Positions 39,156 through 46,114 of a DNA stretch of 64,000 nucleotides are shown here, one piece after another (position 1 is the stretch's first letter; every line of letters starts with the position of its first letter). Location: contig JADHWN010000008.1 in the NCBI GenBank assembly GCA_016783455.1, forward strand, positions 1 to 64,000, read 5' to 3'. A program made the position numbers and the translations under genes. This DNA is from Candidatus Bathyarchaeota archaeon. Lineage in GTDB: Archaea > Thermoproteota > Bathyarchaeia > TCS64. Below the pieces are notes generated by a model. The model worked only from the letters and a program-made list of their open reading frames with translations. It made no database searches and had not been told where the DNA came from.

Positions 39156-39752
39156 TCAGGCGGCGGAGTAGACGAGGGCCGGCACGGCCTCCCTTATCTC
39201 CTGTAGAACCTCGTTTATTGCCTGCTCGGAGGTCCTCCTGAGGATGTGGGCGGTGGCGTTGTCCACTTGGAACCGGCTGGTCCTCCTGAACGAGGCCTTT
39301 TTGACGACCCTGAGCCCCCTGAACCTGAAGCCGTCCTCCTCCGTAAGCTCCACGTCGAACTTGTACCTGTTGAACTCAACGAGGCCGACGCCCCGGGGCA
39401 CCTCCCATGGCGAAACGAGCCTCATCGGTGTGAGGACGTAGTTGAAGTTGCAGGCGGTGCAGACGAAACCGTTACGAAAGTCCCCCCGGGAGACCTTCAC
39501 CTCGACGCCCCGGAGAATGTTTTGGGTGACCTCGTAGTCGCCGGGGCCCAGCTCCTCCCGCCCCTCCCTGAGCCTGAAGAAGCGCTCCCCGACGCCGCAG
39601 ACGTCGATGACATGGTGCTCGTCGAGGTCGTGGAGCATGGTCTGGCCGAAGCGGCTGAGGGGGACCTCGGTGTCCACGAGGAAGCAGCCCTGGTTGATGA
39701 GGAAGGCGGCGCCCACCCGCTTCAGGAAGCCGTGGAGGTCGGACTCCCCCAT
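39156..39752 (-). CDS. Putative PD-(D/E)XK nuclease-like protein (MmcB-like motif), PolB2-associated
   Basis: HHVIDVCGVGERF…RGVEVKVSRGDFRNGFVCTACNFNYVLTP fits D…ExK…S..DF; last gene of the PolB2 cluster. Confidence 0.55.
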   Translation of the reverse strand: MGESDLHGFLKRVGAAFLINQGCFLVDTEVPLSRFGQTMLHDLDEHHVIDVCGVGERFFRLREGREELGPGDYEVTQNILRGVEVKVSRGDFRNGFVCTACNFNYVLTPMRLVSPWEVPRGVGLVEFNRYKFDVELTEEDGFRFRGLRVVKKASFRRTSRFQVDNATAHILRRTSEQAINEVLQEIREAVPALVYSAA

Positions 39753-39755
39753 CCC

Positions 39756-41861
39756 TCAGCCCTCCACGCTCCCCGACACCCCGACGAGGAACTCCTCCAG
39801 CCGCCGGGGCCGAGGCACATCCGCCTCCCGGGGGTCGACGCCGAAGGGCATCAGTATGCTGCGCCCGGCCTCCTGGACCAGCTGGACATACTTCTCTGCG
39901 TCGTAGCCCGCGCCGCGCCCGGCGGGGCGGACCCTGCGGAAGGGGTTGCCGTGGCCGGCGTCGACGTAGACGTAGTCGATGAGGCTGCCCTTCACCACCC
40001 TGGTGCCGGTGAGGGCGAGGGCCTCTGCGGCCGCGACGTGGGGGAGACGGGCCTTGTACCGTTCGGGGTCCCTCCGGAGCACCGTGGAGGTCTTCAGCGC
40101 CTCGACGGGGACCTCCCTGTCCCGGAGGCGGCGGCAGGCCCCCTCGAGGACGGCGAGGGCGCGGCTCAGCCCCTCCGTTCGGACCTCCTCGGGGGTCTCG
40201 CAGCCCAGCAGGGCCTCGATGGCCTCCTCCTGGATCCGTGCGACGAAGGGGGAGGTGTCCCTGCGCCGTAGCTCGATGCCCCGGTGCTTGTGGCCGCCGT
40301 CGGCTAGGCGGCCGTAGTACCTGTTGACGGCGCCGATGCCCGTCTCGCCCTTCTGGGGGAGGAGGACGAGGAACCTGAAGCGGGCCTCGACGGCCATGGG
40401 GAGGCCGACGTGGTCTGAGATGGCGGCGGCGAGGTCTTGGAAGCCCTCTCGGGTGGCGCCGGGGCGCTTCAGGAAGAGGCTGTCGTTGTTCCCGTAGAGG
40501 GTGTGGAACCCCCGGCTCCGGGCGAGGTTCATGCTCTCCACGAGGGCGTCCCGGGCCTGCCTGTTGACCTCCGTGAAGGTGTCGAAGTTGCCGAACCTGT
40601 TGGCCCAGCAGCCGCTGTAGCCGTATGTGCAGAACAGGATCTCCTTGAGGGCGAGCTGGCGCCCCTCGCACCACCGCCACTCCTGGGAGTCCTTGGGGAG
40701 GCGGTAGCGGAGGTGCTTGAAGTATAGGCGGCGGTCCAGGGTCTCCCGGGTGAAGTCGACGATGAACCCCTCCCTGTCCCGGAGGTCCCGCACGTTCTCG
40801 TAGCTGATGTTCCTGCGGACGATGAGGTTGGGGAACATGCTCTCGAAGTCGAGGGAGGCGACGTTCTCGTGGAGCCCCACGTCGGGGGTGAAGATGAGCC
40901 CCCCGCTGTCCCTGTAGAGTAGCTCCCTCATGGTCATCACGGGCTGGAAGCCCCCCCGGTGGAGGAGGAGCACCCCTCGGCGCCGGGCCTCGTAGCACTG
41001 CCGGCTCTCGATGGCCCTCCCCGCCGCCCACTCGGCGGAGAGCCTGGCTGGGAGCCGGGTGTATTGGACCCGCTCCACGAGCCCCGCGAGGCTGAGGCGG
41101 CCGTAGGTGGAGAGGGAGACGTGGGCCCTCCCCCCGTAGAGGACGGGGCCGTCCCGGGTGACCCTGCCGAAGCGGCGGTGGCCCAAGAGGCGGCTCAGGG
41201 TGAGGAGGTCGGAGAGGTCCTTGGGGCGGGAGGCGACGATGTCGGGGTCCAGGTCGGCGAAGTGGTCCAGGAAGTCCCTGAGGACCTGCCGGGTGGGGCC
41301 CGCGAAGGCGTACTCCTGCTCGAGGTTCTCGTCGAATGTGAGTATCTCCCCCCGGCTGCTCCCGAGCTTCAGGGCGAAGGCGAGGAGGCGGATGGGCGGG
41401 GGCTCCACCTCCAGGGTCCGGGGGATGGGGGCGATGGACCTCAGGGCCCGTCCGTCGGCCTCCACCTCGACGTGGCCCAGGGGTATGAGGGATCTGTCGC
41501 AGAGGTACTTGAGCTCGTGCTCCAGGTCGCCGTCGTATGTGGCGGCGACGCAGGGCATCCTGTCGACCTCGTCCAGAAGGGCACGGTAGTTCCCCACTTC
41601 GTCGACGCGGATGTTGACCACCTCAGTCTCCGCCATCTCCCGTATAGAGGAGCGCCTGCGGGCTGTGGAGACGCCCGCGACGAGGTCGTGCTCCTCCAGG
41701 AGGTCCCTGAGCTGGGCGGCGGTCATCCCCAGGGGCTCGGCGTAGAAGTCGGGGGTGTACCGGTCACGGAGCTTCACCTTCTCCCCTTCGGCGGTCCTGA
41801 GCCAGAGGACGGCCTCGTCCCCGTCGAATCGGACGTCCAGGAGCCAGCCGTCAAACCCCAC
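39756..41861 (-). CDS. PolB2-like family B DNA polymerase with substituted catalytic motifs
   Basis: Motif A LDFESMFPNLI, motif B RQLALKEILFCTYGYSG, motif C LYGNNDSLF (canonical YGDTDS), no recognisable ExoI DxE. Confidence 0.82.
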   Translation of the reverse strand: MGFDGWLLDVRFDGDEAVLWLRTAEGEKVKLRDRYTPDFYAEPLGMTAAQLRDLLEEHDLVAGVSTARRRSSIREMAETEVVNIRVDEVGNYRALLDEVDRMPCVAATYDGDLEHELKYLCDRSLIPLGHVEVEADGRALRSIAPIPRTLEVEPPPIRLLAFALKLGSSRGEILTFDENLEQEYAFAGPTRQVLRDFLDHFADLDPDIVASRPKDLSDLLTLSRLLGHRRFGRVTRDGPVLYGGRAHVSLSTYGRLSLAGLVERVQYTRLPARLSAEWAAGRAIESRQCYEARRRGVLLLHRGGFQPVMTMRELLYRDSGGLIFTPDVGLHENVASLDFESMFPNLIVRRNISYENVRDLRDREGFIVDFTRETLDRRLYFKHLRYRLPKDSQEWRWCEGRQLALKEILFCTYGYSGCWANRFGNFDTFTEVNRQARDALVESMNLARSRGFHTLYGNNDSLFLKRPGATREGFQDLAAAISDHVGLPMAVEARFRFLVLLPQKGETGIGAVNRYYGRLADGGHKHRGIELRRRDTSPFVARIQEEAIEALLGCETPEEVRTEGLSRALAVLEGACRRLRDREVPVEALKTSTVLRRDPERYKARLPHVAAAEALALTGTRVVKGSLIDYVYVDAGHGNPFRRVRPAGRGAGYDAEKYVQLVQEAGRSILMPFGVDPREADVPRPRRLEEFLVGVSGSVEG

Positions 41862-42096
41862 GTCTCAGCCCCTCCAGCTCGCCCCTGAGCGCCTCGATCT
41901 CCCGCCTGTTGTCCACCGCCGCCGTCAGCAGCAAGAGGTCCAGGGCGGAGAGGACCTCGGCGAAGATCATCGCCCCCTGCTCGCTGGACCAGGAGGGCCA
42001 GAGCTCGTCGAAGGCCCTCTGCATCTCGTCGTCCTTGAGGGCGGCCCTGTACTTCTTCCTCAGGTGGACCATGGCGTCCTGGAGGCGCCCCCTCAT
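41851..42096 (-). CDS. Small helical protein (81 aa) in the PolB2 cluster
   Basis: MRGRLQDAMVHLRKKYRAALKDDEMQRAFDELWPSWSSEQGAMIFAEVLSALDLLLLTAAVDNRREIEALRGELEGLRRGV; its end overlaps the polB2 start by 11 nt. Start trimmed from the 162-aa ORF; a GTG at 42120 is an alternative. Confidence 0.6.
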   Translation of the reverse strand: MRGRLQDAMVHLRKKYRAALKDDEMQRAFDELWPSWSSEQGAMIFAEVLSALDLLLLTAAVDNRREIEALRGELEGLRRGV

Positions 42097-42107
42097 GGAG
42101 TCCCGGG

Positions 42108-42887
42108 TTATGCGCCCCACAGGGCCCCCTCCTCCCCGAAGTGGACGGCCAGCCCCGTCCGGGCCCTGTCCGGGTGCTTCACGGCGTAGGCCGAGGCCGG
42201 CCCCCCCTTGGACTCCCGGAGGTAGATGATGGCGTTGGCCGAGTGCCTCAGGAAGCTGCCCCCCTCCGGCAGCGGGATGGGCCTGCCCCGGTCCGACGAC
42301 CGGCAGGTGGCCGCCAGCACCGCCCCCCTCTCGGCGCACGTGGCCCTCAGCCGGGAGACGATGCCCGTGAAGGCGTTGAGGGTCTCGAACCTGAGGGCGT
42401 CCTCGCCGTAGAAGAGCTTCGCCAGCTGCTGGACCGCCACCAGGGAGAAGCCCCCGTGCTCCTCGAGGAGGGCCTCCACCAGGGCGGGGGCCTTCAGGAG
42501 GTGTCTCTCCGAGAAGGCGGAGACGACGTGGATCCTGGAGAGGCTGTCGTCGATGTCGAGGCCGGAGGCGTCGATGAGGGAGATGAGGAGCTCTGGGTCC
42601 ATCACCGTCCGGGAGCGGCGGTAGTTGCCGCAGAGGAGGTAGACCGCACGTGAGCCCTCCTCCCTGACGGCCTCCACCAGCAGCCGGAGGAGCAGGGTGT
42701 CCGGGAGCTCGCAGCCCTCGTCCCCGTAGAAGAGGTAGAAGAGGCCGGGGTCCATGCCGCCGGTGAGACTGTCGAGCTCAGGGCTGCCCGTGGCGAGAGC
42801 GCGGTGCCCCTCCCGCCTCTGGAGTATGGTCAGGGCCGACTCGAAGGGGGGTCCGGTCTGGGCTCCGCGGGTCTGTGGAGAATCCAT
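42108..42887 (-). CDS. RecA/RadA-superfamily paralog with degenerate Walker A and B
   Basis: RALATGSPELDSLTGGMDPGLFYLFYGDEGCELPDTLLLRLLVEAV…FSLVAVQQLAKLFYGED resembles the KaiC/RadA fold start, but GxxxxGK(S/T) and the Walker B Asp are absent. Confidence 0.7.
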   Translation of the reverse strand: MDSPQTRGAQTGPPFESALTILQRREGHRALATGSPELDSLTGGMDPGLFYLFYGDEGCELPDTLLLRLLVEAVREEGSRAVYLLCGNYRRSRTVMDPELLISLIDASGLDIDDSLSRIHVVSAFSERHLLKAPALVEALLEEHGGFSLVAVQQLAKLFYGEDALRFETLNAFTGIVSRLRATCAERGAVLAATCRSSDRGRPIPLPEGGSFLRHSANAIIYLRESKGGPASAYAVKHPDRARTGLAVHFGEEGALWGA

Positions 42888-42969
42888 GGCTGTGCGGAGT
42901 GACGCGCGTCCGGAGACCTCTTAAGAGGTACGCACCCCGGCGAGGGTGGGAGAGGAGTGAAAATGGCGT

Positions 42970-44690: not shown

Positions 44691-45746
44691 TTAGTCGGCT
44701 GGCTCGGGGTCCCTCACGATGGAGCCTGCGCAGCAGTGGATTGAGCCGCTGTTCCTGGGGCGCACCAGGCTGGAGCACTCCACCTCCACGACCTCGACGC
44801 CGATGCTCTCAAGCCACTTCGTCGACTTGGGCCTCCCCGTGGGCACCAGGACCTTCATGGGCTCCAGGACGACTCCAGTGCCTGGGCCCACCTTCTCCCC
44901 CTGGGCGGAGTAGGAGGACACCTCGTCGGGGGCGACGATAAAGGTCCAATCCATCTCCGCCCTCATCCACGCGACGAGGTTTGGGTCCATCTTCTCCGGG
45001 TCCTGGACGGATGTGTGCCTGTCAATCATCTTGTAGTGGCTCACGTCGAGGCGTGAACCGTACCCGGGGCAGAGCCTGATGTCCACCTCGGGGTCCTGGG
45101 CCTTCACGATGCGGGCGTACTGCTCGTGCCCCCACTCGTTGGCCCTCATCACCCCCGGGTCGTACGTGTTAGCCCTGGGATAGTGGACGGCGATGACGAG
45201 GTGCTTCTCGTCGAGCCAGCCTACGGGGCCGCCCTCCACCATGCCGTTCCCCGTGATCATGCCGACGACTGGGCATCCGGCCTCGGCCAGGGTCTGGTAG
45301 GTGGGCACCTCCTCCCCCTTCCTGATGTAGTCGTACATGCGGAGTATGATGCTGCCGTAGACAGCGGCGTGGCAGACATCGTCGGTGTAGATGGCCTTCA
45401 CCTGGTAGGGTGGGTCGAAGGGGTCGGGCTTCCTGATGAGCACCTCGACTCCCTCGTCCCTGTAGGCCTTAGCCATGTTCTCGTGATGCTCTATCAGCTC
45501 GCCCAGGTCCGGCTTGAAGGTCATCCTCCAGGCGGCGAGGGAGTCGCCGTGGGGCGGCCAGGGCGTCTTGTTCCCGACGGAGAGGAACTCGGGGCCGGGG
45601 CGGTGGAGGAGCACGGTCCTGAGCTTCCCGATGGTGGTGTTCGCCTTCCACTTCCGCCCCCAGTACTTGGGCATCTCGTCCTCGAAGTCGGAGAGGACTT
45701 GGAGATGCCACTTCTGATACATCTCCTTGAGGTACTGCTCCGGGGT
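44691..45746 (-). CDS. Arginine deiminase/amidinotransferase-superfamily protein
   Basis: Pentein-like GKLRTVLLHRPG…, catalytic GSIHCCAGSIVRD. Start probably at one of several Met codons near MTPEQYLKEMYQ; the 5' end is uncertain. Confidence 0.8.
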   Translation of the reverse strand, partial: TPEQYLKEMYQKWHLQVLSDFEDEMPKYWGRKWKANTTIGKLRTVLLHRPGPEFLSVGNKTPWPPHGDSLAAWRMTFKPDLGELIEHHENMAKAYRDEGVEVLIRKPDPFDPPYQVKAIYTDDVCHAAVYGSIILRMYDYIRKGEEVPTYQTLAEAGCPVVGMITGNGMVEGGPVGWLDEKHLVIAVHYPRANTYDPGVMRANEWGHEQYARIVKAQDPEVDIRLCPGYGSRLDVSHYKMIDRHTSVQDPEKMDPNLVAWMRAEMDWTFIVAPDEVSSYSAQGEKVGPGTGVVLEPMKVLVPTGRPKSTKWLESIGVEVVEVECSSLVRPRNSGSIHCCAGSIVRDPEPAD

Positions 45747-46114
45747 CATGTCTGAATCGGAACTCATGACAATCGAATTTGATCTCTCGGACATCGTATA
45801 AAAGAAGATGGGAGCCGGTGTCGCCGACAGAGAGGGTGTTGAGGGACCTGCGCCTCGCCTCGACATCATTGAGGTTGTGCTCCCTCGCACCCCGGATCCG
45901 CATCCTCATCGGTCGACCACCAGCGACCATCAAACGGGGGACACCTGAATTCAGGGCTCCTTACACCTGTATCTCATGTACGACATATTGTTCCGCTTTT
46001 GGACCCCCTTCCTCCTCACGTGTAGAAAGACGCTACACACAAACGGCTTTGATGGGCTGAGGAGAAGCAAAGAGACTAGGCGAGACACGCACATCCACGT
46101 GGATAGCAGGGACC

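Follow-up and report, generated by a model that had tools for sequence, protein, structure and literature searches.

A putative damage-regulated PolB2 mutasome operon with an appended MmcB-like nuclease gene in a Candidatus Bathyarchaeota genome

The stretch of DNA analyzed here (the window: 64,000 nucleotides, positions 1 to 64,000 of contig JADHWN010000008.1, assembly GCA_016783455.1, Candidatus Bathyarchaeota archaeon) carries four consecutive minus-strand genes, for a RadA-like protein, a small helical protein, a B-family DNA polymerase, and a PD-(D/E)XK nuclease-like protein, and it raises the question of whether these form one DNA damage response complex, as a preliminary description of the locus proposed. 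We found that the first three genes are iRadA, PPB2, and PolB2, i.e., a PolB2 mutasome operon of a kind already known, and that the fourth gene, newly recognized here from sequence and model comparisons, encodes a PD-(D/E)XK protein that is a remote relative of MmcB. Our best explanation, to which we give a probability of roughly 0.7, is a damage-regulated PolB2 mutasome operon with an accessory MmcB-like nuclease; what is new in it is the nuclease and a conserved promoter box. Relatives are labeled G4xx to G5xx (genomes) and Lxxx (loci); G000 is the window genome, G482 is a sister genome of the same genus, g130 and g133 are genera, and f1 is the window family (27 genomes).

The four genes are real genes and not chance open reading frames of GC-rich DNA, because there are Pfam and NCBIfam matches and structure matches of the polymerase model, and because the same four genes stand in the same order in the sister genome (GAT-iRadA-PPB2-PolB2-nuclease). 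Their positions (Table 1), the 11-nt overlap between the small protein and the polymerase (41851-41861), and the 3-nt gap between the polymerase and the nuclease (39753-39755) agree with the preliminary description. The start of the small protein needs correction, from an internal ATG to the GTG at 42120, which gives a 13-nt overlap with the end of the RadA-like gene. From this GTG the frame reads MGRITRDSMRGRLQ..., and the N-terminus, MGRITRDSMRGR, aligns with the (M/V/L)GR(I/T/V/S/A) starts of relatives (LGRISRDSMR, from a TTG start, in G482) and matches the conserved "MGRT" arm of PPB2 (PMC11791011).

Table 1. Features of the PolB2 locus in the window
Feature	Position	Strand	Remarks
iRadA-like gene	42108..42887	-	259 aa; NCBIfam RadA 1.5e-9; orthologues upstream of PolB2
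PPB2 (arCOG07300-like) small helical protein	41851..42120	-	GTG start, 89 aa; MGRIT arm; between iRadA and PolB2
PolB2 polymerase	39756..41861	-	701 aa; Pfam, motifs, tree, structure model and Foldseek
PD-(D/E)XK nuclease-like protein, remote MmcB relative	39156..39752	-	198 aa; invariant E29, D50, E84-V-K86, S88, D91
Promoter box ATTTTCACTCCTCTCCCACC (includes ANTTTC)	42945..42964	-	77 nt upstream of iRadA start; conserved in relatives
TGCG word upstream of TATA-like element	42931..42934	-	same spacing kept in relatives; putative role
CTTAAG, TATA-like element	42920..42925	-	CTTAAG/CTTAAA/TTTATA at equal position in relatives; putative role

The polymerase matched Pfam DNA_pol_B at 2.6e-26, and the nearest solved structures to its model (predicted local distance difference test [pLDDT] score, 88) were archaeal B-family polymerases, with Foldseek E values of about 1e-44. 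In an unrooted tree of 66 sequences built by a quick method, it fell into a 47-row clade together with iRadA/PPB2-linked polymerases (SH-like approximate likelihood ratio test [SH-aLRT] support, 100) and apart from replicative PolB1/PolB3, the split between PolB2 and replicative PolB having an SH-aLRT value of 97-100. The earlier reading of the polymerase as PolB2-like was thus borne out. Motifs A and C read DFESMFPN and YGNNDS, respectively; the motif A Asp and the second motif C Asp are kept, whereas the first catalytic Asp of motif C is replaced and the exonuclease is degenerate, its usual residues not being visible by inspection, as in the known PolB2 (Dpo2) mutasome. Before motif A, the D(K/R) motif reads D-S in the window against D-H or D-(R/K) in relatives, with the Asp invariant. 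The C-terminus is RRLEEFLV in the window and ends in LESFF or LDAFF in relatives; these tails (LEEFL in the window) look like PCNA-binding boxes (PCNA-interacting peptide-like), in a region that is disordered in the model. As side observations on PolB2, family f1 (e.g., G485, G494, and G495) carries two lineages of the polymerase, one with an N(N/S)D motif C and the other having, for the most part, an intact DTD and an iRadA-PPB2 fusion, and some f1 genomes have both, or two copies of one. The PolB2 of G486 (L129) looks truncated after about 405 residues and adjoins a topoisomerase IB-like gene, and at L024 and L021 PolB2 adjoins a protein of about 133 aa that by reading resembles a SWIM zinc finger protein.

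The RadA-like protein lacks the N-terminal domain, and its Walker A motif is lost, with LFYGDEGCELPD at the position of the RadA P-loop. The order iRadA-PPB2-PolB2 is kept throughout the relatives, and the three genes are linked across the phylum. Makarova et al. described this operon in 2014 (PMC4104785), and in 2025 Timinskas et al. proposed a model of its products as a heteropentameric mutasome (PMC11791011). The window operon shares with the known one the gene order, an inactive RadA, and the MGRT-like arm of PPB2; it differs in the D-S noted above and in the fourth gene appended to it. The preliminary description was therefore right in its central idea of a mutasome-like PolB2 cluster, although such an operon has been known since 2014. 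Its RadA-like partner of PolB2 is the known partner iRadA, and the small helical protein, which it held to be an uncharacterized candidate, is PPB2 (arCOG07300), also a known PolB2 partner. The parallel that it saw to RecA-containing bacterial mutasomes had already been published for Pol V (PMC11791011). In the bacterial ImuA-ImuB-DnaE2 and Pol V mutasomes, too, an error-prone polymerase is joined by a protein of the RecA family and an accessory one, but their polymerases belong to families C/Y and not B, and the systems are analogous, not homologous. Weak matches of the small protein to Cas2e were rejected, PPB2 fitting by position and N-terminal arm.

Scans against Pfam, NCBIfam, and PADLOC gave nothing useful for the nuclease, with no Pfam model match, and a direct PF06319 (MmcB-like) search of the nuclease family gave no match over the cutoff. 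Among PHROGs, its matches were to a family annotated as "DNA repair protein" (1.3e-4) and to one listed as unknown (6e-6). The structure model (pLDDT, 72) has a PD-(D/E)XK fold with D...ExK residues, and the residues listed in Table 1 are invariant in 13/13 members of the family. Its best solved match was SPO1766 (3dnx), with a Foldseek E value of 2.5e-3, a probability of 0.94, and a low template modeling score of 0.30-0.38; a phage protein with a PF06319 match at 3.9e-9 also matches 3dnx. Furthermore, one profile-profile comparison (hhalign) of the nuclease with a set of MmcB-like proteins, PF06319-matching members included, gave 98.3% and an E value of 1.8e-14, and paired EVKVSRxDF with EVKVSRxDF. 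We assign the nuclease as a remote MmcB relative because of the PHROG match, the 3dnx match, the phage MmcB-like link, and the hhalign result. A protein from a Pontibacillus plasmid is a further, intermediate relative, although a search seeded with it gained nothing further.

With MmcB (PF06319; SPO1766, 3dnx) the window protein shares a PD-(D/E)XK core with D...ExKxSxxDF followed by a GLI..LPxGxGL segment, whereas it misses the Pfam model and has a CxxCNxNY insertion, in which the Cys residues are not invariant, and a long C-terminal helix. Since it is without a Pfam match, a Pfam-based neighborhood survey, such as that of 2025, could have missed it. Caulobacter MmcB is an SOS-regulated PD-(D/E)XK nuclease that protects against mitomycin C, and its joint action with translesion polymerases has been proposed (PMC9578287); a similar tie may hold for the window protein, which is, however, archaeal, so that any control of its gene would come from an archaeal promoter box instead of LexA. 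Its nuclease activity and substrate are putative.

The nuclease is distributed quite differently from the operon. A profile search found it in 1 of 398 genomes of the phylum, that of the window, and within the class it was found in one Bathyarchaeia family (the window genome plus 12 more), with a broken copy in G504. Nuclease matches in a contig scan were only in Bathyarchaeota, the named contigs all being Candidatus Bathyarchaeota; a viral scan found none, and no nuclease was found beside PolB2 outside the window family. In the genus of G000 and G482 the nuclease gene directly follows PolB2 in the same direction, as it does in G497 behind the other (DTD) PolB2 paralogue; it is separable from PolB2, yet placed behind it in two settings. 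In g133, apart from G497, the gene sits in a neighborhood of TFB, eIF5A, and deoxyhypusine synthase, and PolB2 lies at another place in the genome. In g130, a C-terminal remnant of PolB2 stands beside an intact nuclease in G488, and G485 keeps GAT and the nuclease while the operon between them is gone. The g130 nuclease genes, which have no ATG at the aligned start, show ratios of nonsynonymous to synonymous substitution rates (dN/dS) of 0.10-0.14, that is, purifying selection after local loss of PolB2. The four genes, proposed earlier as one complex, are thus not conserved together: neighborhood comparison finds the first three linked phylum-wide and the nuclease in one family, where most genomes that have it carry it apart from PolB2 and where it persists in g130 species after PolB2 has gone. 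Because it is kept under purifying selection where PolB2 has been lost, the nuclease is better regarded as an accessory gene that probably shares the regulon than as an obligate fourth subunit.

The evidence for regulation comes from the promoters. In the window, iRadA is preceded by ATTTTCACTCCTCTCCCACC at -77, then TGCG and CTTAAG. Across genera, a box of the form ATTTTCAC-N4-CYCCC, which contains ANTTTC, lies at a constant distance ahead of iRadA; in G482, G483, G486, G493, and G496 it stands at -73 to -77, and G488 and G494 have a variant with ACTTTC in front of their DTD-type operons. Within -87..-60, a range set from the iRadA data, ANTTTC was present in 7/15 iRadA operons versus 3.1% of 413 background genes (P, 1.6e-7), or, by our own count of lineages, in 6 of about 11 (P, 4e-7). 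ANTTTC is the damage element bound by Orc1-2 in Saccharolobus (PMC9738581), and dpo2 is strongly induced by 4-nitroquinoline 1-oxide (NQO) in Sulfolobales, by >20-fold in Saccharolobus (PMC10470591). The window thus resembles Sulfolobales in having the hexamer at a fixed place upstream of the PolB2 operon (PMC9738581, PMC6934391) but differs in that ANTTTC lies within a longer box, one half of which is C-rich; in addition, the genomes of the genus gave one Orc1/Cdc6 match each, so that another regulator may act here. Judging from the conservation of the promoter, which appears to be of the damage type, the operon is probably induced by DNA damage. The damage response suggested earlier is supported in this respect, while its one four-gene complex is not supported as stated. 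The box would extend the Sulfolobales-type damage element to another archaeal class. An Orc1/Cdc6 gene lies near the PolB2 operon in G491:C7 and G492:C28, a proximity reported in other archaea too.

When TTTTCACN{3,5}CYCCC was used to look for a regulon, few matches turned up outside the operon, near the control level. At G000:C17:26331-26346 (L171) and in G483 (L161), ATTTTCAC-N4-CTCCC and then CTTAAA precede a short gene (about 75 aa; MRTVSDYQIGAFEALEWAWHML...) oriented divergently to the seryl-tRNA synthetase gene; this short gene is a possible second regulon member. The best box outside iRadA, ACTTTCACCCAGCTCCCACC, stands with TGCG and a TATA-like element at a 105-aa gene near the DTD-type PolB2 operon of G485 (L132:2692-3009).

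Lone nuclease genes carry related elements. In G494, G495, and G498 they are preceded by AGTTTCAC-N4-CYYYC at -70, and looser versions stand before those of G493 and G500. The resemblance to the operon box holds in one subclade, and weaker forms are present in two more. ANTTTC lies in the preset range in 2/5 lone-nuclease lineages (P, 0.009). TTTCAC-N4-CYYYC occurs in 0.15% of the background, about one gene of 689, the window iRadA being such a gene. The nuclease genes of G000 and G482 lack a separate box. In G495 and G498, the small conserved gene immediately before the nuclease likewise has the ATTTTCAC box (L060:6637-6897 and L062:6926-7195), in the form ATTTTCACTCCGATACCC at -72 and -63; these boxes rank about 14th-15th of 993 genes.

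Taken together, iRadA, a PPB2 trimer, and PolB2 would form a translesion polymerase complex, the composition being that expected from homology and from published models. The complex may dock on PCNA via the LxxF(F/L) tail of PolB2, and its genes would be transcribed from the ANTTTC-box promoter, probably upon DNA damage. The MmcB-like PD-(D/E)XK nuclease appended in the window lineage would most likely cut or trim DNA at lesions or stalled forks (e.g., beside crosslinks or bulky adducts), whereupon PolB2 could extend across or fill the resulting gap, as hypothesized for MmcB and translesion polymerases in Caulobacter. Since the nuclease persists in genomes that have lost PolB2, it would take part in the same response without being a fixed subunit. 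More tentatively, and we would sooner doubt than assert it, a Bathyarchaeia damage regulon with ATTTTCAC-N4-CYCCC promoters may couple the PolB2 mutasome to an MmcB-like lesion-processing nuclease. If true, this would be an archaeal incise-and-bypass pathway like the one proposed for Caulobacter. A nuclease of a family tied to bacterial translesion synthesis, appended to the operon and apparently sharing the box when separate, would be a concrete candidate partner of PolB2.

Several observations weigh against a damage-regulated operon that includes the nuclease in its response. The nuclease is present in G487 (96% complete), which has neither PolB2 nor iRadA; many PolB2 genomes have no nuclease; and within the family the two do not co-occur significantly (Fisher P, 0.16). 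Scored with a strict matrix trained on the promoters of iRadA, five lone nuclease promoters reach only the top 4-12% and others rank lower. Besides, G000 and G482 have one Orc1/Cdc6 match each, and a dedicated Orc1-2-like regulator is not apparent, although a distant paralogue or a gap in the assembly may have hidden one. Given these matrix ranks, and because the composite lone-nuclease pattern was refined after seeing the data, the lone promoters are no more than suggestive of a box common to operon and nuclease. An incidental neighbor, that is, an independent MmcB-like repair nuclease that came to lie behind PolB2 in one genus and has no joint role, is a possibility to be taken seriously, if one that we hold to be less probable than not: its location away from PolB2 in most genomes, in the conserved TFB/eIF5A/deoxyhypusine synthase neighborhood, its confinement beside PolB2 to the window family, and the purifying selection that persists after local PolB2 loss would all fit, whereas same-direction placement behind two different PolB2 paralogues (G000/G482 and G497) and the box of the lone copies would not.

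The opposite possibility, that in the window genus the nuclease is a true mutasome subunit which replaces the lost proofreading exonuclease or adds a lesion-cutting activity, draws on the arrangement of the genes, since the 3-nt spacing, the common strand, and the absence of a box of its own in G000 and G482 suggest that the nuclease is translated from the PolB2 mRNA; we consider it unlikely, however, in view of the absence of the nuclease from most PolB2 operons, its retention without PolB2 in G487, and the lack of any fusion seen. It is more improbable still that PolB2 is catalytically dead and the operon serves in replication control or fork removal and not in translesion synthesis. The replaced motif C Asp and the degenerate exonuclease would fit this reading, which was that of 2014 (PMC4104785), but Sulfolobales Dpo2 is without the same Asp and yet active and required for targeted mutagenesis (PMC11791011), and the window PolB2 keeps the two other Asp residues of motifs A and C. 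We retain the damage-regulated PolB2 operon with an accessory nuclease as the best explanation.

In the surroundings of the operon, the ABC transporter genes downstream were rejected as members of the cassette, G482 carrying other genes there, and an Rfam scan of 33-50 kb found no RNA. An arginine-deiminase/amidinotransferase-like gene, recognized by reading and without a Pfam match for the window copy, lies at 44691-45890 of the window, and by reading a similar gene stands near N-type PolB2 operons in several genera (L138, L126, L127, and L128).

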